Shown: piece after piece, positions 20,730-48,542 of the stretch
Numbering within the stretch: the first letter of the stretch is position 1
Layout of the letters: each line of letters opens with the position of its first letter
Assembly (NCBI RefSeq): GCF_900109175.1
Contig: NZ_FNZE01000018.1
Coordinates: 1 to 64,000 of the forward strand
Direction of reading: 5' to 3'
Source: Pseudomonas linyingensis
GTDB lineage: Bacteria > Pseudomonadota > Gammaproteobacteria > Pseudomonadales > Pseudomonadaceae
Length of the DNA: 64,000 bases
The notes under the pieces: model-generated
Databases searched by the model: none
What the model was told of the DNA's origin: nothing
What the model saw: only the letters and a program-made list of their open reading frames with translations
Position numbers and translations under genes: made by a program

Positions 20730-20974
20730 GTTCAATCTCCTGCCCGCCACCTCGCGTGGCGCAGATCAACGGTTGTCGGCAGGGCTGGCCTGCCTGTCGT
20801 TATATGCCCGGCCACGGGGTCGGGGTGCCGCGCAGCCTTGTGGGCCGGGCGCGGCGGGGTGCGCTGCCGCCGGAGCGGCAAGACACGAAATGGGGCTGCT
20901 CGGCAGGCCCCGAATAGAACGGCGCGGGCCTTGTGGGCCAGTGCCGGATCGCCTCAGGGCAATCGCATGCCGGT

Positions 20975-21035
20975 CTGTAGGGGCGAATTCATTCGCCTTG
21001 GCGGGGTGTTTCGGCGAATGAATTCGCCCCTACAG
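20975..21035. repeat. 23-bp palindromic repeat (REP-like)
   Basis: CTGTAGGGGCGAATTCATTC... and its perfect complement form a 23-bp stem with a 15-nt loop. Such GTAGGGGCGAATTCATTCGCC palindromes are repeated in Pseudomonadaceae genomes. It occupies the gap between the small DUF683 gene and fdxB, the only large gap (20730-21119) inside the nifE block. The last bases of the window (GTGTAGGGGC) may begin another copy. Confidence 0.8.
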
Positions 21036-21079
21036 CGGATTGACCAGGCTCGGAAGCCACTCATGCGCTTGCCCGGCGG

Positions 21080-21099
21080 GGCGCCCCGAGAGGGGCGCC
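21080..21099 (-). terminator. Short GC hairpin after the DUF683 gene
   Basis: GGCGCCCC-GAGA-GGGGCGCC lies 21 bp past the stop codon at 21120. With no T run it is more likely a pause or attenuation point than a full stop; it separates nifENX from fdxB. Confidence 0.5.
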
Positions 21100-21119
21100 T
21101 GTGCTCCGCGACTCGCCCA

Positions 21120-23722: not shown

Positions 23723-25120
<1,398 letters not shown>

Positions 25121-25162
25121 TTACCCCTCTGGATGCGTCGGTGCGGCATTCGCGAGGGGTGT

Positions 25163-25178
25163 TGCAAGGGCTGCACCA
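25163..25178 (-). promoter_or_regulatory. Sigma-54 promoter of nifENX
   Basis: Minus-strand TGGTGCAGCCCTTGCA has GG-N10-GC and CTTGCA at -12, 46 bp before nifE. Confidence 0.88.
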
Positions 25179-25183
25179 GAGCA

Positions 25184-25196
25184 CAGGCAATTGATT
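25184..25196 (-). promoter_or_regulatory. IHF-like site before nifE
   Basis: CAGGCAATTGATT matches the complement of WATCAA-N4-TTR at all but one position and lies 6 bp upstream of the promoter in an AT-rich patch. Confidence 0.5.
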
Positions 25197-25241
25197 TAAA
25201 AGGATTTTTACTGAAGATGCGTTGTCGCAAAGGCGCCGGGA

Positions 25242-25257
25242 TGTCGGGTTTGCGACA
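25242..25257 (-). promoter_or_regulatory. NifA site for nifENX
   Basis: TGTCGGGTTTGCGACA, an exact TGT-N10-ACA palindrome identical over 16 bases to the iscA-nifU site, lies 64 bp upstream of the -24 element. Confidence 0.88.
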
Positions 25258-25371
25258 ACCGGGTGGCGGGGACGGCGCGGAGAGGATTCAGCCGGACCAA
25301 TCTCTCCGTCCTCGCAAGTCACGCAGATGCATGCCGTCACTCAGCCAATAGGCCCGGCGTCTGCGACGGAG

Positions 25372-25410
25372 AAAAACGCCTGCGGCTGAGCGGATAGCCC
25401 AGGCGTTTTT
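25372..25410 (-). terminator. Intrinsic terminator of the peroxiredoxin gene
   Basis: AAAAACGCCTG / CAGGCGTTTTT forms an 11-bp stem with the A and T runs built in, 9 bp after the stop codon. It can work on both strands and separates this gene from the nifE promoter. Confidence 0.88.
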
Positions 25411-25418
25411 CTGTTGCC

Positions 25419-26072
25419 TTACTTCGGCGCGTGGGTTGTGCGCAGGTAGGGCAGCTTGATGTCGATGCTGCCGTACTTCTCGCGGGCCTGATCGTCGTTG
25501 AGCGATAGTGCGACGATCACGTCTTGGCCCACCGTCCAGTCAGCGGGGGTGGCCAGCGGCACCTCGTAGGTCAGCTGCAGGGCGTCCAGGGCACGCAGCA
25601 CTTCGGCAAAGTTGCGCCCCACGGACATCGGATAGGTCATGGACAGCTTGAGCTTCTTGTCCGGGCCGATGATGAACACGGAGCGCACGGTGGCTGTTTC
25701 GGCGGCGGTACGGCCATCGGGCAAGTAGGCCTCGGCAGGCAGCATGTCGAACGCCTTGGAGACGGCCAACCCTTCGTCCGCAATGATCGGGAAGGCCGCC
25801 TTGGTGCCGCAGAAGCCTTCGATATCGCCTTTCCACTTCTTGTGCGCTTCCACACCATCCACCGACACGCCAATCACCTTGGTGCCACGCTTCGCCCACT
25901 CATCGACCAGTTGCGCGACGGCGCCGAACTCGGTGGTGCACACCGGGGTGAAGTCCTTCGGGTGGGAAAAAAGGATGGCCCAGTCGGAACCGATCCAGTC
26001 GTGGAAGGTGATGGGCCCCTGGTCGGTATCGGCCGTGAAGTTGGGAACGAGGTCGTTGATGCGCAGTGCCAT
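25419..26072 (-). CDS. 1-Cys peroxiredoxin (Prx6 type)
   Basis: A 217-residue thiol peroxidase that reduces hydrogen peroxide and organic peroxides. The peroxidatic cysteine is Cys45 in SHPKDFTPVC, with the conserved Thr and Pro. There is the C-terminal extension of the Prx6 branch (AREKYGSIDIKLPYLRTT). GAGGAGG before the ATG at 26072 fixes the start; a longer frame to 26105 lacks one. Its place next to nifE fits a role in protecting nitrogenase from oxygen by-products, but its promoter shows no intact NifA site. The DNA directly upstream is a decayed nifE leader copy. Confidence 0.92.
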   Translation of the reverse strand: MALRINDLVPNFTADTDQGPITFHDWIGSDWAILFSHPKDFTPVCTTEFGAVAQLVDEWAKRGTKVIGVSVDGVEAHKKWKGDIEGFCGTKAAFPIIADEGLAVSKAFDMLPAEAYLPDGRTAAETATVRSVFIIGPDKKLKLSMTYPMSVGRNFAEVLRALDALQLTYEVPLATPADWTVGQDVIVALSLNDDQAREKYGSIDIKLPYLRTTHAPK

Positions 26073-26219
26073 GGATATGCCCTCCTCGAGCTTGATGAAC
26101 GACAAGCATGGAAGAGCCTAGACGGGATTTGAAACGCCGGGGCCGTGCATCACCGCGGACTTCACAGCCATCCGCTGCTGGCCGTTGTTCATCGGGCGCT
26201 CCTGATGTACCCATTCCCG

Positions 26220-26315
26220 GCCGCTCGGCAAGGTCTTTGGTTGTCATCGCTTACCTCCTCTGCATGCAGAAGTGCGCGATTCACCAGGAGTGTGGCAAGA
26301 GCTGTAGCAGAAGAC
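26220..26315 (-). pseudogene. Decayed duplicate of the nifE leader and first codons
   Basis: On the plus strand GCTCGGCAAGGTCTTTGG... through TCATCGCTTACC... and GTGTGGCAAGAGCTGTAGCAG aligns base for base with the nifE start and promoter (25097-25185). The encoded start MTTKDLAER matches Nif[10 protein letters not shown], after which similarity stops. The -24 GG of the promoter has become GC, so it is probably silent. It lies just upstream of the peroxiredoxin gene. Confidence 0.7.
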
Positions 26316-26388
26316 ATTTCCGGGTGGCAGTCTTGCGTTTCAGCTGGCTGCTTCAGCAGCACGGATTGCTTCCTCTGGAGCCACTTCC

Positions 26389-26907
26389 ATGTTCATTGCC
26401 CACCTGCCCTCCGGCTACATCCTGGCCTCGCTGCTGTTGAAACGCGCCGGGCAGCTTCCCGTCCAGGCGCGAACACTCATGCTGGCCGGAATCCTTGGTG
26501 CCGTGGCGCCCGACTTCGACATGCTCTACTTCTATTTGGTGGACAACCGGCAGACCCATCACCACCGCTATTTCGTGCACTGGCCCATTCTCTGGTTCGG
26601 CCTGGCGCTCGCCTGCACGATCTGGCAGCGGCTGGCGCCGACCTCACGACGCGCTCCTGCCGCCCTGGTGTTCAGCCTGGGCGGCATCCTCCATCTGCTG
26701 CTGGACAGTTTCGTCGGCGACATCTGGTGGCTGGCGCCCCTCGTCGACCAGCCCTTTGCCCTGTTCAGCGTGCCGGCCGTATTCAAGCCTTGGTGGCTGA
26801 ACTTCATCCTGCACTGGTCCTTCGCAGTCGAACTGGGAATCTGGCTGTGGGCGTTGCTGATCTACCGCAGGCAGGACAATAGCTTGGCGCACGGGAACCA
26901 TGGCTAA
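26389..26907 (+). CDS. YdjM/DUF457-family inner-membrane protein
   Basis: A 172-residue membrane protein with about four spans. The motif pattern of the family, DFD near residue 43 (APDFDMLYFYLVD), THHHRYFVHWP near residue 55 and GGILHLLLDSF near residue 102, resembles metal-dependent membrane hydrolases related to YdjM. Histidines and aspartates are conserved, so metal binding is likely; the substrate is unknown. It has no link to nitrogen fixation that I can see and is on the opposite strand to its neighbours. Confidence 0.82.
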   Translation: MFIAHLPSGYILASLLLKRAGQLPVQARTLMLAGILGAVAPDFDMLYFYLVDNRQTHHHRYFVHWPILWFGLALACTIWQRLAPTSRRAPAALVFSLGGILHLLLDSFVGDIWWLAPLVDQPFALFSVPAVFKPWWLNFILHWSFAVELGIWLWALLIYRRQDNSLAHGNHG

Positions 26908-26985
26908 GCGGACTATGTCGAGCAGGCCTCCGGTAGCCGCAGCTCGAAAGAATAAATCGCCCCCTTTCACCCCAAATATTCTCAA

Positions 26986-29493
26986 TTACTGCCAACCGAG
27001 AATATCTTTTATTTCTTTCAGGCAGACCCTTGGCATTTTAAGCCTTGAGACCTCCGTTTCATTCAACACCTTCAGGTAGTCTTCTATTTCTACCGCCCCA
27101 CTCCAATCAACAGCATTTTTAAGCTTAAGAGCGGTGAATCTAGAAAACCCAAGAGACATCAAACTAAGCTCTACCGCAGAGCATGCCCCAAACTCCAAGA
27201 ATGTATGATATTGCGCCTGTTTCGCATCATCATCACTGAATCCTTTAGTGACGAGACAGTACCTTATAATATCCTCATAAGCACTAAAATATTTCACCAT
27301 CTTAAATCGTATCTCGGACTCTATTACCTTTAGCAGTTCCCTTATTACCAGCGAGATACTTATATTTCCGCCACCTTTCTCCTTATAATTAACCCGCTCC
27401 CTAATCAGAGTACTTATTGACTCTCCGGTGATCCATTGATGCGCCAGGAACCCCACCCACTTTCTGAATTTTGGGTTTTCTGCCCATTCAAAAACTTCTG
27501 AAATCAAATTTATAGCGCTTACCATCCGATGGTATCCGCCCTGCTGAAATGGACTGATGAGTGAGAGCACCTCTGTATGCACCATGCTACATAGGCACTC
27601 ATAAAGCTTCTGAAGGTGATCTGGCCTTAAGCTGCTATGGGATTTTAGAATTTCATCAGGCAGCGTAATTTTCAAGTTCTTTATGTGGCTGAGATTATCC
27701 ACCAGGACTTCAAGATTTTCCTTTGTTTCATATCTCGATAGAACTTGGCCATCCCCAAGCGTGACTGTCTCTTGGTACAGCCGACTAAATCCAGCTTCCG
27801 CGAGATCTTTGTCTTCAATGCTTACATTCCCTTTTATAAGATCAAATATTAGTGAGCCACCATCATCCATTAGCCTTTCCATTGAGGCCTTTATTTCCTG
27901 AAGATTATCTCCTACATATGACTCTTCTTTCCAATCACTTGGCCGTACGCACCAAATATTTCCGTGAAACTCATGAAGAAGCCTGCCGGCACGCCCGGAA
28001 AGGTTCAAGAAGTCTGACCGTGACATAGGTGAGTTTCCGCTGTGCGGGTTTTCTATGACGATGTGCTTTGCGGGCAGGTTAACCCCTTGCAATAGAGTGC
28101 TGGTACAGCACAAAAATCTTACCTCCCCACTTTTAAACAGATCTTCAACACCTGCTCTAACAATGGATGGCATATCCCCATAGTGGAAGGCTATTCCGCG
28201 CTCTAACGTCTCTACCAGAGGGTAATCAGGGTGAATTTCCGCCTTAATGAATTGAATAAAATCTTTAACCTCATCGGATACAGTAAATTCTCTTCCTATC
28301 TTTAAAAGCTCACCTGCAACGCTTTCAGCCTCTCCAGGCCCATTTGCAAAAACAATAGTTGACTCGCCACTGAAGGTGATTTCATTAGCAAGATTCGCCC
28401 GTTGTTTTACCTTGGAACCCCTAAAACTGAAGCCAATAGGTGCATTCCCAAGATCTATGTTCTGGTTTGCCGCCACAAGGGAGGCGTTAATTAACTTAGA
28501 CCGCCCTGGAACTTCCGATATAAGAAGAAGATTTTGTGATACAGGGGAGATTGTCTCTGTAAAAAACACCCCCTCATCTTGCCGACCAAATAGGCTGAGA
28601 AAGTATCCCGGATTACTAATTAACGGACTCGCGAAGAGAATGGATGTTTTAGGGTGCAGCGTTAACGCTAGGTCGACTGCGCTTTGAAGCGTAACACCTC
28701 TACTCCCCTTTTGAATTTCATGAGCCTCATCAACAAAAATAGATGTAATCGGCCTCTTGTTGTTTTCCGGCTTTAACAGACTCAGAAAGCGCTCAGGGGT
28801 CAGAACATATATAACACTGGCTACTTTCCGACTCTCCTTTATTGGAAATGGCGCAGTTCTGACTACTGCGCCAGCTATCCCTCTACTCCGTATAGCCGAC
28901 CGCACTCTCGCTGAAACTTCCGATATTAGCGCCCTAGTTGGAACAACATAAACAATATTCTTCTCCACCCCCGCATCTAAGCGCCTTATTAAATCAAGAT
29001 TCAGTATGAATGACTTTCCTGCCGAAGTAGGAGCGGAGATACTCAAGGACTTTTGAGACTCCAGCGATGCGTAAAATTTGTACTGAAAATCCGTTAATAT
29101 AAAACCTTCATCAGTGGTGTTCTCCACCTCTCTTGCCAATCGCTCCAAAGAAAGGGAAAGAGCTGGAGAGGAACCATCCAATTCTTGATATCTCTTTCTG
29201 AGCAAAGCTCTTCCGGGAAAGTTACCTATTCTTGATAGCACTATATCGGCAGCCAGAGCAATGGCTTTTTTGTGGGGCAAATCGCTTTCAACAATCCGGC
29301 TAACTACTTCATATGCGAGCGATAAATCTTCTGGATTGTCAGAGATGGATAGTATAGATGACAGACCTATCAGTCTTCTAACTTCATCTTCAGTCAGCGA
29401 GCTGGCGCCTCGCCGCGCCGGAATCAAATGATCAATACTGTGCCGAAACAGCTTATCCAAATCCGATTTAAACCCTTCTAATTTGATTTCCAT
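26986..29493 (-). CDS. hamB: HamB-like DEAD/DEAH helicase of a Hachiman system
   Basis: An 835-residue superfamily 2 helicase. Walker A is APTSAGKS at residues 154-161, motif Ia is VVPTRALI near 184, motif II is the DEAH box (FVDEAHEI) near 255, and motif VI is NLSGRAGR near residue 490, in the Ski2-like style. It starts 1 bp after the stop of the DUF1837-type gene before it, so the pair is a two-gene operon. HamA-HamB pairs form the Hachiman anti-phage system, in which HamB senses and HamA cuts DNA. The gene is strikingly AT-rich against the GC-rich nif DNA on both sides, which points to recent transfer. Confidence 0.85.
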   Translation of the reverse strand: MEIKLEGFKSDLDKLFRHSIDHLIPARRGASSLTEDEVRRLIGLSSILSISDNPEDLSLAYEVVSRIVESDLPHKKAIALAADIVLSRIGNFPGRALLRKRYQELDGSSPALSLSLERLAREVENTTDEGFILTDFQYKFYASLESQKSLSISAPTSAGKSFILNLDLIRRLDAGVEKNIVYVVPTRALISEVSARVRSAIRSRGIAGAVVRTAPFPIKESRKVASVIYVLTPERFLSLLKPENNKRPITSIFVDEAHEIQKGSRGVTLQSAVDLALTLHPKTSILFASPLISNPGYFLSLFGRQDEGVFFTETISPVSQNLLLISEVPGRSKLINASLVAANQNIDLGNAPIGFSFRGSKVKQRANLANEITFSGESTIVFANGPGEAESVAGELLKIGREFTVSDEVKDFIQFIKAEIHPDYPLVETLERGIAFHYGDMPSIVRAGVEDLFKSGEVRFLCCTSTLLQGVNLPAKHIVIENPHSGNSPMSRSDFLNLSGRAGRLLHEFHGNIWCVRPSDWKEESYVGDNLQEIKASMERLMDDGGSLIFDLIKGNVSIEDKDLAEAGFSRLYQETVTLGDGQVLSRYETKENLEVLVDNLSHIKNLKITLPDEILKSHSSLRPDHLQKLYECLCSMVHTEVLSLISPFQQGGYHRMVSAINLISEVFEWAENPKFRKWVGFLAHQWITGESISTLIRERVNYKEKGGGNISISLVIRELLKVIESEIRFKMVKYFSAYEDIIRYCLVTKGFSDDDAKQAQYHTFLEFGACSAVELSLMSLGFSRFTALKLKNAVDWSGAVEIEDYLKVLNETEVSRLKMPRVCLKEIKDILGWQ

Positions 29494-29494
29494 A

Positions 29495-30421
29495 TCAGCT
29501 TAGGGCCTCATTGAATTCGTTTCTAAACTCTTGGACCGATGGGAACGGCATAAAGAAAATATCGAACCTTAGATATTTTCTCGAAAAACCATTCAACTTC
29601 TTCTCCAGCAAAACTGAGATGCTCTCTACTTCTTTCTCAAATTTCTCCCTAAACTCCATAGCAAGGTCTTGACTCGACTTAAAGCTTTCGTTTGAGTAAG
29701 CATTCCAGTTATATCCGATCAAACAGGCGTGATTGACTCTAGCCCCCGGCCCTGGCTCGCCAAGCATAATATGCTCCGCCACTGCTTCTTGAACCTCCAT
29801 GTCGGCGTACTTAAAATGCTTTGTTATCATTGTAAACTCATGCTTATAGGACTCATCAGCATGAAAACTCTCAATACTTTTAAGCGCTGATGTAAGCGCA
29901 TCGCCGATCTCTCTATACAGCTTCGACTCACCAAAATAGAAATCGACAACCTTGTCATACTCATTCCACTTTGCATGTATCCCATCAGAGCCATTAACCT
30001 CAAGCTTCTTATTTGTCTTAAGCTCCATCTTTGCAACAATTTGTGGAGCTTGAACAATAGATTCCATCAAGAAGAACAGTAGAGCTTCTCCGGCCTCGCC
30101 CGTTTTGTCAGGACTCTCATCGGTTACATCCGGATGGCGAAATAATTTTCGCGCCTCCTTGGTGAATCTGGCCGACTCTTTAGCCGTAAGAGTGGACGGC
30201 CTATTCTTTGCGGCTATACAGTAATGAACTATATATTGATAAAGCAGCTCTGCAAGAGCTTTTGTCATTGGACGCCCATTACCATCAAATCTTAGATGGT
30301 GAAACCTCAGATTTGCTTTCAAAGAACGCACACACTGAGTGTGTTCAATAGAGTCAATGCAGGCTTGGTAATCATCGCGATCGACAGCTATTAGAGACTG
30401 AATATCTGCCAACTTAACCAT
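29495..30421 (-). CDS. hamA: HamA-like DUF1837 nuclease of a Hachiman system
   Basis: A 308-residue protein. The stretch from residue 108 reads GEAGEALLFFLMES, then KMELKTN at 131-137, GSDGIH at 144-149 and FYFGESKLYR at 161-170. Glu112, Asp146 and Glu165-x-Lys167 form a plausible PD-(D/E)xK nuclease site, the known chemistry of DUF1837/HamA. Start at the ATG 30421 with GAGAGG upstream; a TTG-initiated longer frame reaches 30463. It precedes the helicase gene by 1 bp. AT-rich codon use matches that gene. I know the family by motif pattern only; a search would confirm it. Confidence 0.82.
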   Translation of the reverse strand: MVKLADIQSLIAVDRDDYQACIDSIEHTQCVRSLKANLRFHHLRFDGNGRPMTKALAELLYQYIVHYCIAAKNRPSTLTAKESARFTKEARKLFRHPDVTDESPDKTGEAGEALLFFLMESIVQAPQIVAKMELKTNKKLEVNGSDGIHAKWNEYDKVVDFYFGESKLYREIGDALTSALKSIESFHADESYKHEFTMITKHFKYADMEVQEAVAEHIMLGEPGPGARVNHACLIGYNWNAYSNESFKSSQDLAMEFREKFEKEVESISVLLEKKLNGFSRKYLRFDIFFMPFPSVQEFRNEFNEALS

Positions 30422-30608
30422 TCCTTGCCTCTCTTCCTTATAAGCACAACAGCACTTAGCCAATTTTTTTTCAGATTCGTTGTCCGGATTTTTTTGATAT
30501 TTTTTGGCATCACTTAATCAGCAGACAACCAATATCATTGACAAATGAACCTGGCGAAAACCTCGAGATCTCTTATACCGTTCGCCCCTCGCTTGATGCT
30601 CCCCTAAA

Positions 30609-30714
30609 GCCTGTACGAAAAATCAGCCGAGAAAATACCAGGAAAGGCGAAAAGCGACGAGAAAGCGGAGTTTACTATTCCGAACTGCTTATCAACGCTG
30701 CATGGCCGAGCGCT
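30609..30714. repeat. Diverged MITE-like repeat upstream of the Hachiman pair
   Basis: GCCTGTACGA... with AAAGGCGAAAAGC, GAGAAAGCGGAGTTTAC, CCGAAC, TATCAACGC and GGCCGA follows the same order of blocks as the element at 39135-39276 (GCCTGTTCAGG, AAGGCGAAATCGG, AGGAAGCGGAGTTTAC, CCGAAACC, TGTCAACGC, GGCCGACGC). The terminal repeats are eroded. The rest of the 30464-30896 gap holds AT-rich DNA (probable hamA promoter) and a terminator. Confidence 0.6.
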
Positions 30715-30821
30715 GGAATTTTCCATGCAAAGCTTATATACGAAGACAGCTTATACGCCATGACTGCAATTCCCTTGCTTGCGGGGGCATCCAACAAGCA
30801 CAGAGGGTATCGCGCGCGCCA

Positions 30822-30858
30822 CAAAAAAAACAACCGGGACAGCCGTCGCCGTCCCGGT
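30822..30858 (-). terminator. Intrinsic terminator of the nifH-to-lrv operon
   Basis: On the minus strand ACCGGGAC-N10-GTCCCGGT is followed by TTGTTTTTTTT. It lies 38 bp after the lrv stop codon and ends the long nif structural operon. Confidence 0.9.
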
Positions 30859-30896
30859 CCCCGAAGCAAAAAATCCGCTTTTGTCTGCCGACCGCC

Positions 30897-31628
30897 CTAC
30901 CCCAACCGCTCCTCAATCGCCCTCCTCACCTCCGGGTCTTGCTCATCCAGCACGCGCAGGGCATCGAGCGGCGCGTTCTCCACCGCCGCCAGGCGCACGG
31001 TCCAGTCGGGGTCGTGGAGCATGTCAATCACGTCCTCGCCCTTGAGCCGCGAGGCGACGATGCGGCGGATTTCCGGTTCGGCGTCCTGGGCCATCAGGCC
31101 GAGGCTCATCTCCGGCAGGCGCTTGGCGACCAGCTTGCGCACCTGGCGGTCCTCGTCGCGGATGAAGCGGAACAGCCGGCCGGGGGCGATGCGCTGGACC
31201 ACGTAGGCACGCACCAGGTAGTCGGGGTCGTCGGCCATCTGTTCGAGCTGTTCCAGCGGCAGGCGGTCGGCGACGGTGATGCGCACCTCGCGGTCCTCGT
31301 CCTGCAGCAGGGCGACGAGCTGCTCGCGCGGCAGCCGGTAGGCCACCGCGCGGCGCACCACTTCGTCGCTGTCGCGGATCAGCGGGGTCAGCGCCTCGAC
31401 CGGGGCGTAGCGCACGGCGATGGCGCGGCGCTCCCAGAACGGGTCGCCGAGGTACTGCCCGGCCAGCTGCGGGTTGTTGCGGAAGAAGCGGTCGATCTGC
31501 CGGCCGCTCTGCACCGCCACGCAGGCATCGCCCGGGGTGCAGCGGCCGGCCAGCAGCAAGCTGCGGCGGAAGGCGCAGGCATGGCAGTCGCCGATGGGGG
31601 TGTGGTCCGGGCCTTGATCGTCGAGCAT
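30897..31628 (-). CDS. lrv: LRV protein, 4Fe-4S leucine-rich variant repeat protein
   Basis: A 243-residue protein. The N-terminal ~45 residues hold a cluster-binding cysteine set (GDCHACAFRRSLLLAGRCTPGDAC). From about residue 65 to the end it is built of 24-residue leucine-rich variant repeats (RDSDEVVRRAVAYRLPREQL, QDEDREVRITVADRLPLEQL and so on). The Azotobacter vinelandii LRV protein, whose crystal structure is known, has the same layout. Function in nitrogen fixation is unknown. ATG at 31628 with GAGGTG upstream is preferred to a TTG at 31640. Confidence 0.93.
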   Translation of the reverse strand: MLDDQGPDHTPIGDCHACAFRRSLLLAGRCTPGDACVAVQSGRQIDRFFRNNPQLAGQYLGDPFWERRAIAVRYAPVEALTPLIRDSDEVVRRAVAYRLPREQLVALLQDEDREVRITVADRLPLEQLEQMADDPDYLVRAYVVQRIAPGRLFRFIRDEDRQVRKLVAKRLPEMSLGLMAQDAEPEIRRIVASRLKGEDVIDMLHDPDWTVRLAAVENAPLDALRVLDEQDPEVRRAIEERLG

Positions 31629-31636
31629 GCCGCACC

Positions 31637-31906
31637 TCAATCGGGGATGATTTCGGCCAGGACGATGCCGGAGGCGGCGTCGGGGTCGTTGCTCAGTATC
31701 GAGCAGTGATCGCTAGAGTTGACCAGGTAGAGGTTGAAGCGCGGGCGCTCGAACAGGGGCTTGGCGTTGACCATGATGTCGTCGTCCATGCACAGGGTGA
31801 AGTGCACCCCGGGGTTGGCGCTGCGCAGGCGGGCCAGCAGGGCGTCGTCGAGTACGCCCTCCTCGGCCTGGCGAATGACGTCGTCGAGTACGGCTTGGCT
31901 GATCAT
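31637..31906 (-). CDS. Small conserved nif protein between nifY and lrv
   Basis: An 89-residue protein, MISQAVLDDVIRQAEEGVLDD with RLRSANPGVHFTLCMDDDIMV and FNLYLVNSSDHCSILSNDPDAA. It resembles small proteins encoded in the same place in other Pseudomonadaceae nif operons. No cofactor motif is evident, though two cysteines and an acidic loop are conserved-looking. Start at the ATG 31906 with GAGG upstream; a GTG at 31933 is possible. Confidence 0.8.
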   Translation of the reverse strand: MISQAVLDDVIRQAEEGVLDDALLARLRSANPGVHFTLCMDDDIMVNAKPLFERPRFNLYLVNSSDHCSILSNDPDAASGIVLAEIIPD

Positions 31907-33043: not shown

Positions 33044-34615
33044 TTAGCGAACCAGGTCGTAGTTGTAGTCGGTGGTCTGCATGCCACGGGTTTCCTCGTC
33101 CAGACGCTCCAGCACCGAGTTGACGATGGTGGTCAGCATCTGCATGGCACCCTCGTAGCCCAGGGTGGTCTGGCGATGCAGGTGGTGACGGTCGAAGATC
33201 GGGAAGCCGAGGCGGATCAGCGGCACCTCGAATTCCTTGCCCTTGTGCAGGGTGTCGCGCTGGATGAACTTGCCGTAGCTGTTGCCGATCATGAAGTCCG
33301 GCTTGTTGGTGAAGACCAGCGAGCGCAGGTGCCAGAGGTCCTTGCCGACGTACACGGTGCAGTCCTTGCCGTACGGAGAGGCTTCGAGGATCGCATCCAT
33401 GGCCTTCTTCCAACGCTTGTTGCCGTTGTTGCAGAGGATGTGGGTCGGCTCGCAACCCAGCTCCAGCAGGAACTTGGCCAGGCCCATGACGAAGTCCGGG
33501 TCGCCCCAGATGGCAAACTTCTTGCCGTGCAGCCAGGTGTGGGAGTCGGTGATCATGTCGACCAGGCGACCACGCTCTTTTTCCAGGCTGGCCGGGATCG
33601 GCTGACCGGTGATTTCGCTGATCTTCATCAGGAATTCGTCGGTCCAGTCCAGGCCCATCGGGATGCTCAGCTTGGGTACTTCGTGCTTCCAGGTGCCTTC
33701 GACCAGCTTCTTGGTCTTTTCCAGCTGCCACGGCTGCAGCAGCAGGGTGGTGGTGGCGTTCGGCGCGTCCTTGACCTCGGCCTGGCTGGTGCCGCCGGCG
33801 TACATGCGGAACTGGCCGTCGGCCGGGGTATCCAGCACCTCTTCGGGATCGGAGAGGAAGCTGTAGTCGACGTCCATTTCCTTGAGCATGCGCTTGATGA
33901 CGCGGAAGTTGCCCAGGTAGGTCTCGAAGCCCGGAACGATGTTGACCTTGCCGTTGCTGCCAACGACCTTGTCTTCCATGTAGTTCAGGGTGAAGTAGCG
34001 GGCGATGCCCTCGAACATGTTGTCCCAGCCGGTCACATGGCTGCCGACGAAGCTCGGGGTGTGGGCGTACGGAACAGGGTAGTCCTGCTCGATGAACCCT
34101 TCCTTCTTCGAGTTGTTGATGAAGGCGTTGAGGTCGTCGCCGATGACTTCGGCCATGCAGGTGGTGGACACGGCGATCATGTCGGGCTTATAGGTCGCCT
34201 TGCAGTTCTGCAGACCGTCCTTCATGTTCTGCTGGCCGCCGAACACCGCCGCGTCTTCGGTCATCGAGTCGGATACGCAGGACACCGGCTCGCGGAAGTG
34301 GCGGTTGAAGTAGGTGCGGAAGTAGGCGACGCAGCCCTGCGAGCCGTGCACGTAGGGCATGGTTTTTTCGAAGCCCAGCGAGCAGAGCACCGCGCCCAGC
34401 GGCTGGCAGGCCTTGGCCGGGTTGACGGTCAGCGCTTCGCGCGCAAAGTTCAGCTCCTGGTATTCCTGGGTGGTGGTCCACTGGAAGACTTCGTCGATCT
34501 TGTCCTGCGGATGCTTCTCCTCGAAGTCATCGCGCTTGCGGGCAAGCATGTCCTTGTATTCTTCGTCGCGGAACAGCGGATAGCTGGGTTTGATGTTATC
34601 GACTTGCTGGCTCAT
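33044..34615 (-). CDS. nifK: Nitrogenase MoFe protein beta chain NifK
   Basis: A 523-residue subunit that, with NifD, binds the P-cluster which passes electrons to FeMo-cofactor. The three P-cluster cysteines fall at Cys70, Cys95 and Cys153, with Ser188 in place, exactly the Azotobacter numbering. Start at 34615 gives MSQQVDNIKPSYPLF; the longer frame has no ribosome site. Full length and near-identical in style to the Azotobacter protein. It follows nifD by 113 bp. Confidence 0.98.
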   Translation of the reverse strand: MSQQVDNIKPSYPLFRDEEYKDMLARKRDDFEEKHPQDKIDEVFQWTTTQEYQELNFAREALTVNPAKACQPLGAVLCSLGFEKTMPYVHGSQGCVAYFRTYFNRHFREPVSCVSDSMTEDAAVFGGQQNMKDGLQNCKATYKPDMIAVSTTCMAEVIGDDLNAFINNSKKEGFIEQDYPVPYAHTPSFVGSHVTGWDNMFEGIARYFTLNYMEDKVVGSNGKVNIVPGFETYLGNFRVIKRMLKEMDVDYSFLSDPEEVLDTPADGQFRMYAGGTSQAEVKDAPNATTTLLLQPWQLEKTKKLVEGTWKHEVPKLSIPMGLDWTDEFLMKISEITGQPIPASLEKERGRLVDMITDSHTWLHGKKFAIWGDPDFVMGLAKFLLELGCEPTHILCNNGNKRWKKAMDAILEASPYGKDCTVYVGKDLWHLRSLVFTNKPDFMIGNSYGKFIQRDTLHKGKEFEVPLIRLGFPIFDRHHLHRQTTLGYEGAMQMLTTIVNSVLERLDEETRGMQTTDYNYDLVR

Positions 34616-34728
34616 GACTCTTCTCCTGCGCCTCACTCATCTGTGAACGGCGCTAGCGGATATCGGCCGCGGGCATGCCCCGGTTGGCGGGGCCGCCCGC
34701 AGCGGACGTTGCGTACGGTTGCGGACAA

Positions 34729-36210
34729 TCAGGCGCTGACGGCGACTTTCTCGACGGCGGCTTCCGTCTTCTGCCAGGGAGCCTGCAGCCTGCTCCAGCA
34801 CGGATTGTTCAGGGTCATGTCCATGTCACGGGCGAAGATGGCGAAGCCGTCGAAGCCGTGGTACGGGCCGGAGTAGTCCCAGGAGTGCATCTGGCGGAAG
34901 GGGATGCCCATCTTCTGGAAGATGAACTTTTCCTTGATGCCGGAGCCGATCAGGTCGGGCTTGACGCGCTTGACGAACTCTTCGAACTCGTAGCCGGTGA
35001 CATCGTCGTACAGCAGGGTGGCGCTACCCATTTCCTTCATGGTGCGGTCGTAGTCGTCGTTGTGACCGAACTCGTAACCGGTACCGACCACTTCCATGCC
35101 CAGATCTTCGTAGGCACCGATCACGTGGCGCGGACGCAGGCCGCCGATGTAAAGCATGACGCGCTTGCCTTCCAGGCGCGGACGGTACTTGGCGACGACG
35201 GCTTCCCACTCGGCCTGGTACTTGGCAACCACTTCCTCGCACTTGGCCTGGATCGACTCGTCGAACTGGGCGGCGATGGCGCGCAGCGATTCGATGGTCT
35301 TGGTCGGGCCGAAGAAGTTGTATTCCATCCATGGGATACCGTACTTCTCTTCCATGTGACGGGAGATGTAGTTCATCGAGCGGTAGCAGTGCACCAGGTT
35401 CAGCTTGACCTTGGGGGTCAGCTCGATTTCGGCGATGGAACCGTCGCCGGACCACTGGGCCACCACGCGCAGGCCCATTTCTTCGAGCAGGATGCGCGAG
35501 GACCAGGCGTCGCCACCGATGTTGTAATCACCGATGATGGCCACGTCGTAGGGGGTGGTCTGGAAGGAGGTGTCTTCGTCGCGGGCGCCCAGCACCCAGT
35601 CGCGCACCGCGTCGTTGGCGATGTGGTGGCCGAGGGACTGCGACACGCCGCGGAAGCCTTCGCAACGCACCGGAACCACGGTGGTGTCGTGCTCGGCGGC
35701 CTTCTTCTTGGCGACCGCCTCGATGTCGTCGCCGATCAGACCGATCGGGCACTCGGACTGGATGGAGACACCCTTGTTCAGCGGGAACAGGGTTTCGACT
35801 TCGTCGATCAGCTTGGCCAGCTTCTTGTCGCCGCCGAAGACGATGTCCTTCTCCTGGAAGTCGGAGGTGAAGTTCATGGTGACGAAGGCGTTCACGCCGG
35901 TGGTGCCGATGTAGTAGTTACGACGGCCCGCACGCGAATACTGCCCGCAGCCCACCGGGCCGTGGGAGATGTGGATCATGTCCTTGATCGGACCCCAGAC
36001 CACACCCTTGGAGCCGGCGTAGGCGCAGCCGCGGATGGTCATCAGACCCGGCAGCGACTTCTTGTTGGAGGTGATGCACTTCTTCGATTGTTCCAGGGTC
36101 GGATCGTTCGGAGACAGGTGCTTCGCGCGGTCCTTGCGGGCCTTCTCGGGATAGACTTCCAGGACTTCCTGGATGAGGCTTTCGACCTCTTCGCGTGACA
36201 TACCGGACAT
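34729..36210 (-). CDS. nifD: Nitrogenase MoFe protein alpha chain NifD
   Basis: A 493-residue catalytic subunit that holds FeMo-cofactor. P-cluster ligands are Cys62, Cys88 and Cys154; cofactor ligands are Cys275 ([10 protein letters not shown]) and His442 (MHSWDYSG). Counting from the ATG at 36210 gives precisely these family positions. The protein closely follows the Azotobacter sequence over its whole length. It reduces N2 to ammonia in the cytoplasm. Confidence 0.98.
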
Positions 36211-36332: not shown

Positions 36333-37394
<1,062 letters not shown>

Positions 37395-37490: not shown

Positions 37491-37595
37491 ATTGTCGCGA
37501 AGCAACTCGCTCTCTCCAGTCAATTGGCGTCCAGCCAACTTCCCGGCATTCAATAAATCTTTTCAAGATCAAGGAGTTGTGACGATCACGCAAAG

Positions 37596-37611
37596 TGGCG
37601 CGGATATTGCG
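37596..37611 (+). promoter_or_regulatory. Sigma-54 promoter of the SIR2-like operon
   Basis: TGGCGCGGATATTGCG has GG-N10-GC and TTGC at -12. It lies 47 bp before the GTG start at 37658 and faces away from nifH. Confidence 0.82.
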
Positions 37612-37657
37612 ATTGGACTCTGCAGCAGTACGCCCCTATTCCCAGCAGGAGAGTCCA

Positions 37658-38554
37658 GTGAACAGCAGCCAGATAAAGGAGATCCTTGCCCAGCTCGGCA
37701 GCGGCGACATCGTTCCCTACCTGGGCCCCGGCGTCCTCGACGGCGTGGTCGACCGCCTGAGCGGCCAGCCGATCCCCGCCGACAGCGACAGCCTGATCCT
37801 CGCCATGACCGGCGGCCAGCCGATGTCGCCGCGGCTGATGTACGAGTTCCCGCGCGCGGCCATGCATCTGGAGAACAAGAAGGGCCGCAGCTTCATCGAG
37901 CGCTTCCTGACCCAGACCTACGGCGGCGACAACTGGACGCCCTCGCCCGTGCACCAGTGGCTGGCCGATCTGCAGCTGCCCTACATCATCGACTGCAACC
38001 GCGACACCCAGCTGCAGCGCTGCTATGCCGACCGCGCCCACACCCTGGTGGTCGGCGCCGCGCGCCTGGCCGGCACGCCCTACCGCTTCGACCTCTACCA
38101 GGGCGAGGCCGGCCAGTACCGGCCGATCAGCCTGGCCGAGGTGGATACGGCGCTGCCGGTGCTGTTCAAGCCGCTGGGCACGCCGCTGCCCAAGCCCGGC
38201 TACGTCGCCTCGGATGCCGACTTCGTCGACTACATCACCGAGCTGATGGGCGGCTTCGCAGTGCCGGCCTGGGTCAAGCTCAAGCGCCGCAACAAGCGCT
38301 ACCTGTTCCTCGGCATGCCGTTCAACCGCGACACCGAGCGCATGGTGATGAGCGACCTGATCCACGACGCCGCCGAGCCTGCCGGCTGGGCGCTGATCGC
38401 CGAACCGGGCAACAGCGCGCGCAAGCTCTGCGCGCGCAAGCACGTGCAACTGATCGAGGCCGACTGGAGCAGCCTGTTCGCCCTCGGCACCCCCGACACC
38501 GCCGCCCACGTCCCTACCGGCGGCCTGAATCCCTTGACCGACATGAGAACCTGA
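37658..38554 (+). CDS. SIR2-like protein divergent from nifH
   Basis: A 298-residue protein. The N-terminal half resembles the SIR2_2 fold: DIVPYLGPGVLDG near residue 15 for the nucleotide loop, PSPVHQWLADLQLPYIIDCNRD near residue 97 for the NxD segment. The usual GAGxS is GPGV here, so NAD hydrolysis is uncertain. A C-terminal Rossmann-type half follows (RYLFLGMPFNRDTERMVMSDLIHDA). Start at GTG 37658 is set by AGGAG 6 nt upstream. A NifA-type promoter precedes it, so it is probably co-induced with nitrogenase. Similar genes accompany nifH in other Pseudomonadaceae; function unknown. Confidence 0.8.
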   Translation: MNSSQIKEILAQLGSGDIVPYLGPGVLDGVVDRLSGQPIPADSDSLILAMTGGQPMSPRLMYEFPRAAMHLENKKGRSFIERFLTQTYGGDNWTPSPVHQWLADLQLPYIIDCNRDTQLQRCYADRAHTLVVGAARLAGTPYRFDLYQGEAGQYRPISLAEVDTALPVLFKPLGTPLPKPGYVASDADFVDYITELMGGFAVPAWVKLKRRNKRYLFLGMPFNRDTERMVMSDLIHDAAEPAGWALIAEPGNSARKLCARKHVQLIEADWSSLFALGTPDTAAHVPTGGLNPLTDMRT

Positions 38555-43214: not shown

Positions 43215-45088
43215 GTTCGCCCCTCGACCTGCTCAAGGCGCGCCGCTTCGGCCCGCTGTTCGCCACCCAGTTCCTCGGCGCGTTCAACGACAACCTGTTC
43301 AAGAACGCGCTGGTGGTGCTGCTGACCTTCCAGGCCACGCAGTGGACTACGCTCGGCGTCGGCATGCTGGCCAACCTGGCGGCGGGCCTGTTCATCCTGC
43401 CGTTCTTTCTGTTCTCGGCCACCGCCGGCCAACTCGCCGACAAGTACGACAAGGCCGTGCTGGCGCGCTGGACCAAGCTGCTGGAGATTGTCATCGTGCT
43501 GGTCGCCGGTGCCGGCTTCTGGGCACACAGCCTCGAACTGCTGCTCGCCGCGCTTTTCCTGCTCGGCCTGCAGTCGACCCTGTTCGGCCCGGTGAAGTAC
43601 GCCATCCTGCCGCAGCACCTCCACGAGGACGAGCTGGTCGGCGGCAACGCGCTGATCGAGGCCGGCACCTTCGTCGCCATCCTGGTCGGCACCCTGGCCG
43701 GTGGCCTGCTCGCCGGCGCCGCGGACAGCATGCTGTGGATCACCGCCGGCTGCCTGCTGGTCGCCGTGCTCGGTTACTGGAGCAGCCTGGGCATTCCCCC
43801 CGCCCCGGCGCCTGAACCGCAGCTCAAGATCAACCCCAACCCGCTGAGCGAGACCTGGCGCAACATCGGCTTCGCCCGCGAGAGCCATACGGTGTTCCTG
43901 GCGATCCTCGGCATCTCCTGGTTCTGGCTGTACGGCGCGCTGCTGCTCGCCCAGTTCCCCGCCTACGCCAAGGACGTGCTGGGCGGCACCGAGAGCGGGG
44001 TGACCCTGTTGCTCGGCATCTTCACCCTCGGCATCGGCGCCGGCTCGATGCTCTGCGAGCGGCTGTCCGGCAGGCTGGTGGAGATCGGCCTGGTGCCGCT
44101 CGGCTCCATCGGCCTGACCGTGTTCGGCCTCGACCTGGCCTTCGCCTCGCCGGACATGCCGCCGCCGGCGCCGCTGGCTTTCGCCGAACTGCTGCAGGCG
44201 CCGGGTACCCTGCGCGTGCTGTTCGACCTGTTCGGGCTGGGTCTCTTTGGCGGCTTCTTCATCGTGCCGCTGTACGCGCTGATGCAGTTGCGCTCGGCCG
44301 CCGAGCACCGCGCACGGATCGTCGCCGCCAACAACATCCTCAACGCGCTGTTCATGGTGGTCGGCGCCGGCGCCGCGGCCGGGCTGCTCGCCGCCGGCCT
44401 GTCGATCCCCGAACTGTTCGCCTGCGCGGCGCTGGCCAACGCGCTGGTCGCCGTGTACATCTACCGGCTGGTGCCGGAGTTCCTGCTGCGCTTCCTCGAC
44501 TGGCTGCTGATCCACTCGGTCTACCGGCTGGACAAGCAGGGCGTCGAACGCATCCCCTTCAGCGGCCCGGCCCTGCTGGTGTGCAACCACGTCAGCTATG
44601 TCGACGCCCTGGTGATCGCCGCCGCCTGCCGGCGGCCGATCCGCTTCGTGATGGACCACCGCATCTTCCACTGGCCGCTGCTGTCCTTCGTGTTCCGCCA
44701 CGCCCGCGCCATCCCCATCGCCCCGGCGAAGGAGGACGCCGCGCTGCTGGACAGGGCCTATGCCGACGTGGCGAGTGCGCTGGAGGCCGGCGAGCTGGTG
44801 GCGATCTTCCCCGAGGGGCACCTGACCGACGACGGCGAGATCGGTCCGTTCCGCCCCGGCACCCAGCGCATCCTCGAGTGCAACCCGGTCGAGGTGCTGC
44901 CCATGGCGCTGTCCGGGCTGTGGGACAGCCCGTTCTCGCGCCAGGCCACCACGCTGCTGCAGCGCCTGCGCCAGCTGCACCCGCTGCGGCGCGTCACGCT
45001 GAATGTCGGCGAGCCGCTGGCGGCGGAACAGGCCGAGCCGCAGGCGTTGCGCCAGCGGGTTGTGGAGTTGCGTGGCAGCGAGAAATAA
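43211..45088 (+). CDS. LplT-like lysophospholipid transporter fused to a PlsC acyltransferase
   Basis: A 625-residue fusion. Residues 1-420 are an MFS-type transporter with about twelve spans (FGPLFATQFLGAFNDNLFKNA near residue 12), similar to LplT, which flips lysophospholipids. Residues 430-625 are a second PlsC acyltransferase (NHVSYVD near residue 458, FPEGHLTDDG near residue 535). Together with Aas this gives uptake, flipping and re-acylation of lysophospholipids in two polypeptides. The pair resembles the aas-lplT system but carries an extra acyltransferase. Confidence 0.88.
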   Translation: MSSPLDLLKARRFGPLFATQFLGAFNDNLFKNALVVLLTFQATQWTTLGVGMLANLAAGLFILPFFLFSATAGQLADKYDKAVLARWTKLLEIVIVLVAGAGFWAHSLELLLAALFLLGLQSTLFGPVKYAILPQHLHEDELVGGNALIEAGTFVAILVGTLAGGLLAGAADSMLWITAGCLLVAVLGYWSSLGIPPAPAPEPQLKINPNPLSETWRNIGFARESHTVFLAILGISWFWLYGALLLAQFPAYAKDVLGGTESGVTLLLGIFTLGIGAGSMLCERLSGRLVEIGLVPLGSIGLTVFGLDLAFASPDMPPPAPLAFAELLQAPGTLRVLFDLFGLGLFGGFFIVPLYALMQLRSAAEHRARIVAANNILNALFMVVGAGAAAGLLAAGLSIPELFACAALANALVAVYIYRLVPEFLLRFLDWLLIHSVYRLDKQGVERIPFSGPALLVCNHVSYVDALVIAAACRRPIRFVMDHRIFHWPLLSFVFRHARAIPIAPAKEDAALLDRAYADVASALEAGELVAIFPEGHLTDDGEIGPFRPGTQRILECNPVEVLPMALSGLWDSPFSRQATTLLQRLRQLHPLRRVTLNVGEPLAAEQAEPQALRQRVVELRGSEK

Positions 45089-47298: not shown

Positions 47299-47727
47299 CT
47301 AGCTTTGCCAGTGATAGACATTCGTAACCTTCTCGCTGCTATCAAAACAGACGCGCAAGTAGTCGGTATCGATCTTCAAACCTGAACAGTAGCCAAGCTC
47401 GTAATCGAAGCAGTTGTTTTTGGCTGTCCGCATAGGCTCACCGATTAGGCGGGTAACCGTTGCCTTGGGTGCTCCAACAGTCAAATGATTTCTCTCCAAA
47501 TCCCGGCACATCGGGCCACGAAGACATGCCATCTCTTTGTCGAAGCAATCATGATCACTCTTGCAGCTCAGCGCGGAAGACCAGACTGCGCTGTCAAAGC
47601 TCTCTCCCATGAATGGTAGATCGTGAAAGGCAAAGCGGAGAATGGGTTTCCAAAATAGAACAAGCAGCAATAACACTGCTGCAGTGAAAATGACAGCCCA
47701 CTTCATGATCTTTAAGGCGCGTGACAT
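47299..47727 (-). CDS. Single-span protein with cysteine-rich periplasmic part
   Basis: A 142-residue protein. One membrane span near residues 8-28 (MKWAVIFTAAVLLLLVLFW) is followed by a cysteine-rich outer part (LSCKSDHDCFDKEMACLRGPMCRDL, NCFDYELGYCSGLKI, CFDSSE). GAGG before the ATG at 47727 supports this start; an ATG six codons earlier is possible. Composition is more AT-rich than the nif genes. The function is unknown. Confidence 0.65.
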   Translation of the reverse strand: MSRALKIMKWAVIFTAAVLLLLVLFWKPILRFAFHDLPFMGESFDSAVWSSALSCKSDHDCFDKEMACLRGPMCRDLERNHLTVGAPKATVTRLIGEPMRTAKNNCFDYELGYCSGLKIDTDYLRVCFDSSEKVTNVYHWQS

Positions 47728-47742
47728 AAAATCCTCAAGATG

Positions 47743-48007
47743 CATAACAATTAAGTCAACAGGCGAGCAAAAGCATAACTTTTGCGAGTCCAGCGAGCGA
47801 AGCAAACGATTTGAATACGGAGCAAGGCCGATAACAATGCTGACCCCCCGTGATCGATTGAGCGCTTGCCCCCGCTGCGCGAACTACAGAATGGCCCGGG
47901 CGGCAACGCCCAGCGAAGGCCGGATATACGAATGCAACCGCACTGACGACAGGGTTGGAACAGGGTTACTCACCACTTGTGGGGAGAGTCCATATACGCC
48001 TTGTTAG
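47743..48007 (-). other. attC-like segment between two small genes (tentative)
   Basis: Read on the minus strand, CCTAACAAGGCG begins a few bases after the stop codon of the gene at 48010, and TTGACTTAATTGTTATGC ends it, 16 bp before the next small gene. Between are inverted repeat blocks (GCAAAAGTTATGCTTTTGC). Ends like CYTAACAA and GTTATGC recall integron cassette recombination sites, but it is long at 265 bp and does not match the core exactly. Confidence 0.35.
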
Positions 48008-48009
48008 GA

Positions 48010-48396
48010 CTACACAAATGCAAGGCTGAGCACCAGTCCAGGCGTGGTGAGAGCTAGAAGGATAATAGCAAGTCTTTTCAGGGCAAATAGAGTGACCTGT
48101 GTAGTGGTGTTTGCATGCATTGGAGATATGAAGCCCCATGCGAAACCGATAATTGGGTAGTGTGCAAATATTAATGCTAGACCTAAAGTTGGTTGGCCGT
48201 GCACGGGCTTCATGTTGGAAAAGAGGTTGACCATTGCATACGGTGATGTAAATGTATTGGAAATGAAGGCGGCAATACCTAGTGTATTGCCATTTATGAT
48301 TAATAAAAATTGAATCAAGGCAATTAGTAGAAAAACCAGAGCTAGGAATGCAGCAGAGCCTATTCTGTGCCCAGGGGGCGGGATTAATAGAGGCAT
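48010..48396 (-). CDS. Small AT-rich three-span membrane protein
   Basis: A 128-residue protein with three to four hydrophobic spans (FLALVFLLIALIQFLLIING near 16-36, LALIFAHYPIIGFAWGFI near 73-90 and a C-terminal span). It matches no family that I know. AGGA lies about 8 nt before the ATG at 48396. Its AT-rich codon use differs sharply from the neighbours and suggests transferred DNA. Confidence 0.6.
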   Translation of the reverse strand: MPLLIPPPGHRIGSAAFLALVFLLIALIQFLLIINGNTLGIAAFISNTFTSPYAMVNLFSNMKPVHGQPTLGLALIFAHYPIIGFAWGFISPMHANTTTQVTLFALKRLAIILLALTTPGLVLSLAFV

Positions 48397-48429
48397 GCTG
48401 GATATCCTAACTATAAATAGACACCAAGT

Positions 48430-48542
48430 GGTGTATGACTCCCCGGACGGGGCTTGTGGATAACATTCCTTGTCCTTCCGTTCATCCCTGTCTAGACCGC
48501 GGCTTTCAGCGGTAGGGTGGTGCCTCTGGGGAGTTATACACC
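48430..48542. repeat. 15-bp inverted repeat pair bounding 83 bp
   Basis: GGTGTATGACTCCCC at 48430-48444 is repeated in inverted form at 48528-48542 with one mismatch. It lies in the 406-bp gap (48397-48802) before the nafY genes. It may be a small transposon end or a long hairpin. The rest of the gap shows nothing I can identify. Confidence 0.6.

Follow-up and report, generated by a model that had tools for sequence, protein, structure and literature searches.

A Hachiman defence pair inside the nif cluster of Pseudomonas linyingensis, at a slot that appears to be an integron dock in sister species

The DNA analysed here is a stretch of 64,000 nucleotides of Pseudomonas linyingensis (contig NZ_FNZE01000018.1, positions 1 to 64,000; hereafter the window). 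It carries a nitrogen-fixation (nif) cluster, in which a pair of genes of the anti-phage system Hachiman, hamA and hamB, is embedded. The two genes are adjacent and on the same strand, with a 1-base gap between the hamA stop and the hamB start, and they lie in an AT-rich insert between lrv, on the nifHDK side, and nifE (Table 1). We found that HamA matched the Pfam profile PF08878 HamA with 156.5 bits (cut-off 25, E = 1.3e-45) and the PADLOC profile HamA1 PDLC00168 with 426.7 bits (E = 1.4e-128). HamB matched PADLOC HamB2 PDLC00199 with 1049.3 bits over residues 8–832, and the Pfam DEAD and Helicase_C domains were matched as well. Its best matches in the Protein Data Bank (PDB) were chain 9wh1_B (4.4e-59, residues 111–791) and 8zue_B, named anti-bacteriophage protein B. 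The first-pass annotation had described the pair as a DUF1837-type nuclease and a superfamily 2 (SF2) helicase of Hachiman, and these strong matches bear it out; the case that the 308-residue protein would lack a DUF1837 match did not arise. The residues that it had named were also found in place, namely Glu112, Asp146 and Glu165-Ser-Lys167 in the nuclease active site of HamA, and APTSAGKS at 154, DEAH at 255 and SGRAGR at 499 in HamB. The motif region of HamA is conserved in three homologues (54–55% identity).

The available text of PMC12278908 describes the Hachiman system of E. coli ECOR31, in which HamB is the sensor helicase and HamA the effector nuclease, and in which mutation of the active site of either abolishes defence. 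In that system HamB restrains HamA, and entry of a DNA end leads to degradation of both phage and host DNA and to phage resistance; the active-site residues of its HamA are named E138/K140. As in the present window, hamA and hamB are adjacent in ECOR31, HamA has a nuclease domain and HamB is a Ski2-like helicase. However, ECOR31 HamB (8vx9_B) has 1174 amino acids, and its best matching stretch is residues 423–511 of the present HamB, which is a shorter form of 835 amino acids nearest to 9wh1_B (853 amino acids). Because the required motifs are present here, the same mode of action as in ECOR31 is the best guess. Judging from the family, HamB would survey DNA and keep the HamA nuclease inactive. 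A loaded DNA end would drive HamB and release HamA, phage and host DNA would then be degraded, and the infected cell would die without producing phage. By this analogy, the pair is predicted to have nuclease and defence activity. The Hachiman described here is a further member of an already known family, but unlike the known Hachiman systems it is set inside a nif cluster.

We calculated the base composition of the insert and its surroundings. The G+C content was 43.7% in 26959–30738 compared with 67.0% in the remaining window, where no 3780-base stretch outside the insert fell below 60.1%. Third-position G+C was 0.45 in hamA and 0.42 in hamB, far lower than in nifD, nifK, nifE and lrv (0.87–0.94), so the pair does not share the composition of the nif genes. 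The composition shifts sharply at each end of the insert, as had been claimed at first pass. Homology to the nearest relative (G004; the sister genomes are numbered from G002) ends at 26958, and on the other side homology to five relatives (G003–G007) ends at 30739–30749.

The distribution of the pair was then surveyed. Within the genus, 8 genomes including the present one were compared, and the 7 others all lack HamA. HamB at E ≤ 1e-100 was found in 3 of 390 genomes of the order (again including the present one), the other two belonging to other families and showing 49% identity; in this survey the best two candidates per genome were scored among the matches listed, and the cut-off excludes remote Hachiman systems. 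A metagenome-assembled genome of Gallionella has HamA at 54% identity. Among 50,697 phage records one had HamB at E ≤ 1e-30 (25% identity), and 21 of 72,556 plasmids had it at E ≤ 1e-60, every one below 60% identity. Because these phage and plasmid matches are few and distant, no near source of hamAB was found. With 1 of 8 genus genomes and 3 of 390 order genomes, the pair is patchy and foreign-looking. On these sequence comparisons its acquisition, which the first-pass annotation had proposed, is well supported, and the opposite outcome, conservation at this place in all relatives, was not observed.

To understand the place of insertion, we compared the lrv–nifE slot among genomes. Both lrv and nifE were found in the same 7 of the 8 genus genomes. 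Outside the genus, a close nifE (E ≤ 1e-150) occurred in 12 more genomes among the 148 searched, and the lrv–nifE region was read in 11 of these; in the remaining one, G044, nifE is located at the end of a contig. The distance between the tblastn ends of lrv and nifE was 229–275 bp in seven genomes of genera g10 and g17. It was 460, 1189 and 1473 bp in three g15 genomes, the longest of these gaps containing an IS200-like Y1 transposase, and 1190 bp in one g8 genome. Within the genus, the gap was 5.8 kb in the window, 6.2 kb in G006 and 11.9 kb in G007, the three of the seven nif-bearing genomes in which both genes lie on one contig within 12 kb. The assemblies of G003, G004 and G005 break in the slot, with lrv and nifE at facing contig ends from which their linkage is deduced. 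As a separate observation, the nif cluster of G002 (L023, L024) is split at this slot; in this one-contig genome the positions are 275 kb for nifE and 2653 kb for lrv, 2.4 Mb apart.

About 110 bp following lrv are conserved as a block in G003–G007 and the window, ending at about position 30742 of the latter. Beyond it, G003–G007 conserve about 120–150 bp more, up to ...TATTTATAGTTA, the last bases being different in G003 and G004. After this conserved stretch each of the five genomes carries different genes, and no tested cargo gene was common to two slots (E ≤ 1e-4). An integron is usually described as one integrase, one adjoining attI site and one cassette array. The conserved stretch in the slot is an attI site, since the same core of about 60 bp directly precedes the integron integrase gene in G003, G004 and G007. 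This core also precedes a partial integrase in G002 (residues 1–193) and integrase fragments (residues 1–55) in G005 and G006. In five of the six nif-bearing sisters (G003–G007) the slot attI has no adjoining integrase, the sixth being the split G002.

In the slots of the sister species, attI is followed by genes, several of them with attC sites, as in a cassette array. The attC sites were searched with a covariance model (R1) built from an alignment of 14 sites, taken from the array beside the G003 integrase and from other arrays. Its automatic consensus structure holds just 6 pairs, so that the model rests mostly on sequence. A scan of 24 sources (417 kb) gave nine matches at E ≤ 5 in five sources. 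Among them were the slots of G003 (L017, 75.1 bits, a site of the training set), G007 (L013, 51.3 and 47.2 bits, and a weak match of 18.1 bits), G004 (L014, 35.0 and a weak 16.0 bits) and G006 (L012, 34.7 and a weak 18.9 bits). Hence attC was found at E < 1e-5 in 4 of the 5 attI-bearing sister slots; the sites of G004, G006 and G007 were no part of the training set. The covariance model found no attC in the eleven outgroup loci. The slot attC sites overlap the stop codons of cargo genes or lie at most 45 bases beyond them, and some cargo genes have no attC. In G005, the end of an insertion sequence (IS), which elsewhere is located in attC sites, follows the stop codon of the single cargo gene.

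The cargo of the slots is diverse. The G006 slot encodes a Shedu-like protein (Pfam SduA_C 27.8 bits, cut-off 27; PADLOC SduA 3.2e-11). The G007 slot has genes for a DUF4917/PDC-S21 protein (1.9e-66), for an AAA protein with a match to PDC-S59 (5.9e-23), for a macro-domain protein and for a cytidylyltransferase, among others. G004 encodes a T5orf172 protein of the GIY-YIG type, which scored 29.3 bits against PDC-S57, together with a protein resembling Mrr whose score did not reach the Pfam cut-off; G005 carries LprI, and the G003 cargo had no match in the profile scans. Five of the 14 sister slot proteins matched PADLOC profiles at E ≤ 0.01, one of them weakly and partially (13.9 bits, 43 residues). 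An enrichment of the slot in defence genes is not demonstrated by these 5 of 14 matches, which have no baseline for cassettes elsewhere. The first-pass annotation had suggested more widely that a defence system carried by the nif island aids the persistence of the island. Physical linkage and the resemblance of some sister slot genes to defence genes would agree with this, but just 1 of 7 nif-bearing genus genomes has hamAB, and we consider the suggestion quite improbable.

The gene that comes first in the G004 slot shares 66% identity with the first cassette next to the integrase of G007, which suggests one cassette pool. The slot has also taken GC-rich non-cassette genes, because in G007 a heavy-metal P-type ATPase gene and, by eye, an apparent MerR-type regulator gene lie between lrv and the attI unit (L013:10536–13440). 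The corresponding interval of G006 (L012:7548–9280) holds genes for a HicB-like antitoxin (Pfam), for a probable HicA recognised by eye and for an inositol monophosphatase, the last of which by eye is present in the G005 and G007 slots too. Most likely, the slot was already an integron dock in the genus, that is, an attI without an integrase beside it, located behind the lrv terminator and accumulating cassettes.

The window retains a trace of this arrangement; neither the dock nor its trace had been noted in the first-pass annotation. A family search with the orphan attI unit found a scar, the left 44 bp of the unit, next to the insert (Table 1). The remainder of the unit, including the recombination core, is absent from the window slot, and the AT-rich stretch with hamAB begins there. 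No attC lies directly after hamAB, and no attI or attC core lies directly before it. Because the scar is present while the attI core and attC are absent, the slot appears to have been a dock that hamAB replaced; because neither core site is present, entry was not visibly by attI × attC. It is therefore most likely, as far as the sequences can tell, that Hachiman replaced the integron dock by another recombination than attI × attC. The pair would have been acquired after the present species split from its nearest sequenced sister and would have entered the nif cluster at a variable slot. There, hamAB would have taken the place of the attI core and any cassettes, with about 44 bp of the attI unit left behind.

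Several results weigh against this account. The left edge at 26958 is supported by G004 alone, where an apparent transposase fragment, named by eye, adjoins. No direct or inverted repeat of at least 8 bp was common to both ends of the insert when 141-base stretches were compared. At Hachiman, there was neither an attI core nor an attC; with filters off, the best attC score in 25100–31000 was 10.3 bits. Against solved structures, phmmer gave weak matches for HamA (9wh1_A, named HamA protein, 0.0063; a Cas3 chain, 0.087). Finally, the best PADLOC profiles label HamA as type 1 and HamB as type 2, so the subtype label of the pair is ambiguous. Taking all of these into account, we are still rather confident of the combined statement that 26959–30738 holds a complete Hachiman defence operon, that it was acquired and that it replaced a dock.

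The missing sites also bear on a different history, in which Hachiman was inserted as a cassette into the slot attI and a later deletion removed the attI half together with the attC. The scar shows that an attI was formerly there, and the pair shares with most cargo of the five sisters the same slot, an AT-rich character and the direction away from lrv. However, this history requires the loss of both flanking sites, no attC was detected in the interval scanned around hamAB, and two genes of together 3.5 kb are large for one integron cassette. We regard it as unlikely, and the route of entry was probably other than attI × attC.

An older origin was also considered, namely that hamAB is an old pair of the lineage with odd composition, retained here and lost in the sister species. 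Its position inside an otherwise syntenic cluster would fit, but its third-position G+C is about half that of the nif genes, all seven other genus genomes lack it, the scar points to different earlier content, and the slot is nearly empty in two other genera. Against so many observations this origin is extremely improbable.

We further searched the genus for other attI cores and found 25 of them in 7 of the 8 genomes, with up to 6 per genome. Only 6 adjoin an integrase gene or fragment, and the other 19 lie away from any integrase match. A longer query added two attI matches, one in the nif slot of G003 and one in G005. An integrase over the TIGR02249 cut-off occurs in 5 of the 8 genomes and never beside the slot; it is full-length in G003, G004 and G007, and G005 and G006 have fragments alone. 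In the genome of the window, the integrase over the cut-off lies on another contig (C17) and is cut by the contig start. Many lone attI copies share a left arm, and this suggests spread of the units and not many separate deletions. In the family, the attI core was found in 21 of 148 genomes, and matches reaching into the left arm occurred in this genus only (best five or fewer candidates per genome). With the same limit on candidates, 12 of 15 attI cores in eight genomes of g8, g10, g15 and g17 had no integrase match (E ≤ 1e-15) within 50 kb on the contig, which rules out that lone attI cores are confined to this genus. The genomes of other genera with lone attI cores include G038, G023, G049, G014, G016 and G032.

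These lone units may also be read as dead relics of lost integrases, with the slot cassettes as old leftovers. The truncated integrases of G002, G005 and G006 are in agreement with such decay, as is the fact that IS ends occupy many attC sites. However, a full-length integrase persists in three genomes, no tested cargo is common to two slots, and the left arm common to many lone units is significant in this genus only. We therefore tend to doubt that these units are relics, while granting the reading a considerable chance. We infer instead that the docks may be functional. In this proposal, one chromosomal integron would serve scattered attI docks in trans in the genus and probably in related genera; the dock behind the nifHDK–lrv terminator would let defence and other cassettes swap harmlessly, and Hachiman would have taken over this slot. 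We put the proposal forward tentatively, with a confidence that is close to balanced and leans slightly to caution.

Chromosomal and mobile integrons with anti-phage cassettes are already known, as the available text of PMC12444791 indicates (its references 91–93). They share with the present case attI, attC, a genomic integrase and some defence-like cassettes. What differs here is that many attI cores have no adjoining integrase, that one of them is in a nif cluster, and that Hachiman has no attC. Clusters of cassettes remote from the integrase gene, as defined in the accessible parts of PMC12444791 and PMC9892861, are similar in having cassettes away from the integrase. Unlike them, the slot clusters described here start with a recognisable attI core and a left arm common to other lone sites. 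For mobile integrons, the available portion of PMC12901181 describes cassettes that carry partial attI sites, in which attI sequence has likewise moved away from the integrase. There the partial sites lie inside resistance cassettes, whereas the present sites are chromosomal, occur in environmental relatives and have a left arm that is conserved; the overlap between the two may be larger than that portion reveals. Our literature search covered titles and the starts of abstracts, with most subscription papers outside its scope, and gave no description of integrase-free attI sites scattered in a chromosome, of cassettes in a nif cluster or of Hachiman in a nif cluster. The slot as an apparent integron dock is a larger and more unusual finding than Hachiman itself.

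The remaining features of the cluster are given in Table 1. NifE, NifN, NifK, NifD and NifH all exceed their NCBIfam cut-offs. The first-pass annotation had placed the pair between nifE and nifHDK; it does lie inside the nif cluster, but it is not directly beside nifE, since the GC-rich peroxiredoxin and YdjM-like genes intervene.

Table 1. Coordinates of the features discussed, in window positions
Feature	Position	Strand	Description	Basis
AT-rich insert	26959..30738		hamAB with ~317 bp upstream and 27 bp downstream	composition; ends of homology
hamA	29495..30421	minus	308 amino acids; PD-(D/E)xK nuclease of Hachiman	Pfam and PADLOC profiles, motif residues
hamB	26986..29493	minus	835 amino acids; Ski2-like SF2 helicase of Hachiman	PADLOC, PDB match, motifs
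Scar	30742..30785	minus	left 44 bp of orphan attI unit	95% identity with the first 44 bp of the 162-bp unit; E 2.1e-13
nifE	23723..25117	minus	one flank of the slot	NCBIfam TIGR01283 724.5 bits, cut-off 505.1
Peroxiredoxin gene	25419..26105	minus	between nifE and insert; kept in G004	NCBIfam peroxiredoxin models <=171.8 bits, below cut-off
YdjM-like membrane protein gene	26389..26907	plus	adjoins insert; adjoins lrv in G007 and G002 too	Pfam YdjM 7.7e-15
Probable terminator of nifHDK-lrv transcript	30834..30857	minus	hairpin, then T-run	by eye, unscored
lrv	30897..31640	minus	LRV / 4Fe-4S protein; nifHDK-side flank	Pfam LRV 3.5e-33, LRV_FeS 8.6e-12
nifK	33044..34636	minus		NCBIfam TIGR01286, above cut-off
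nifD	34729..36210	minus		NCBIfam TIGR01282, above cut-off
nifH	36333..37220	minus		NCBIfam TIGR01287, above cut-off
Two small AT-rich cassette-like genes	47299..48456 (~47299-47748, ~48010-48432)	minus	G+C 0.48, 0.44	
attC site (right part)	47741..47828	minus	not in training set	covariance model R1, 54.8 bits, E 2.8e-11
IS110/IS1111-type remnant	47815..48012	minus	inserted in attC; ~190 bp left	31 matches in 6/8 genomes, some partial
attI core without integrase	48408..48469	minus		85% identity to attI query

A second integron spot of the nif region lies further along the window (47299–48470). It consists of an attI core and, after it on that strand, two small genes, an attC site and an IS remnant; neither Pfam nor PADLOC gave a match at E ≤ 0.01 for the two genes. 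The stretch 47818–48008 was at first read as attC, and a longer alignment identified it as the end of an IS110/IS1111-type element located in attC sites. Longer copies of the remnant run into a transposase (Pfam Transposase_20, DEDD_Tnp_IS110). The accessible text of PMC11187229 describes IS1111-type elements targeting attC, which likewise have an IS110-type transposase and copies just after the TAAC core of attC. The window keeps the remnant alone.

Three further observations concern other parts of the window. An inverted repeat of about 61 bp (20940–21110), with the look of a repetitive extragenic palindrome (REP), is 92% identical over 108 bp to a stretch in the G006 slot. The gene at 37595–38554, divergent from nifH, gave a weak score of 18.9 bits against SIR2_2, which is under the Pfam cut-off. 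Rfam at gathering thresholds, applied to the window and six loci, gave nothing at the slot; elsewhere in the window it found two tRNAs and one small RNA, Bcj11 (Burkholderia RNA 11, 43860–43981, 50.9 bits, gathering threshold 49).

If the lone attI sites work, cassettes could be delivered to set places in the chromosome, including the permissive end of a core operon. If this is true, it would offer a concrete and testable reason for the presence of defence genes inside metabolic clusters.

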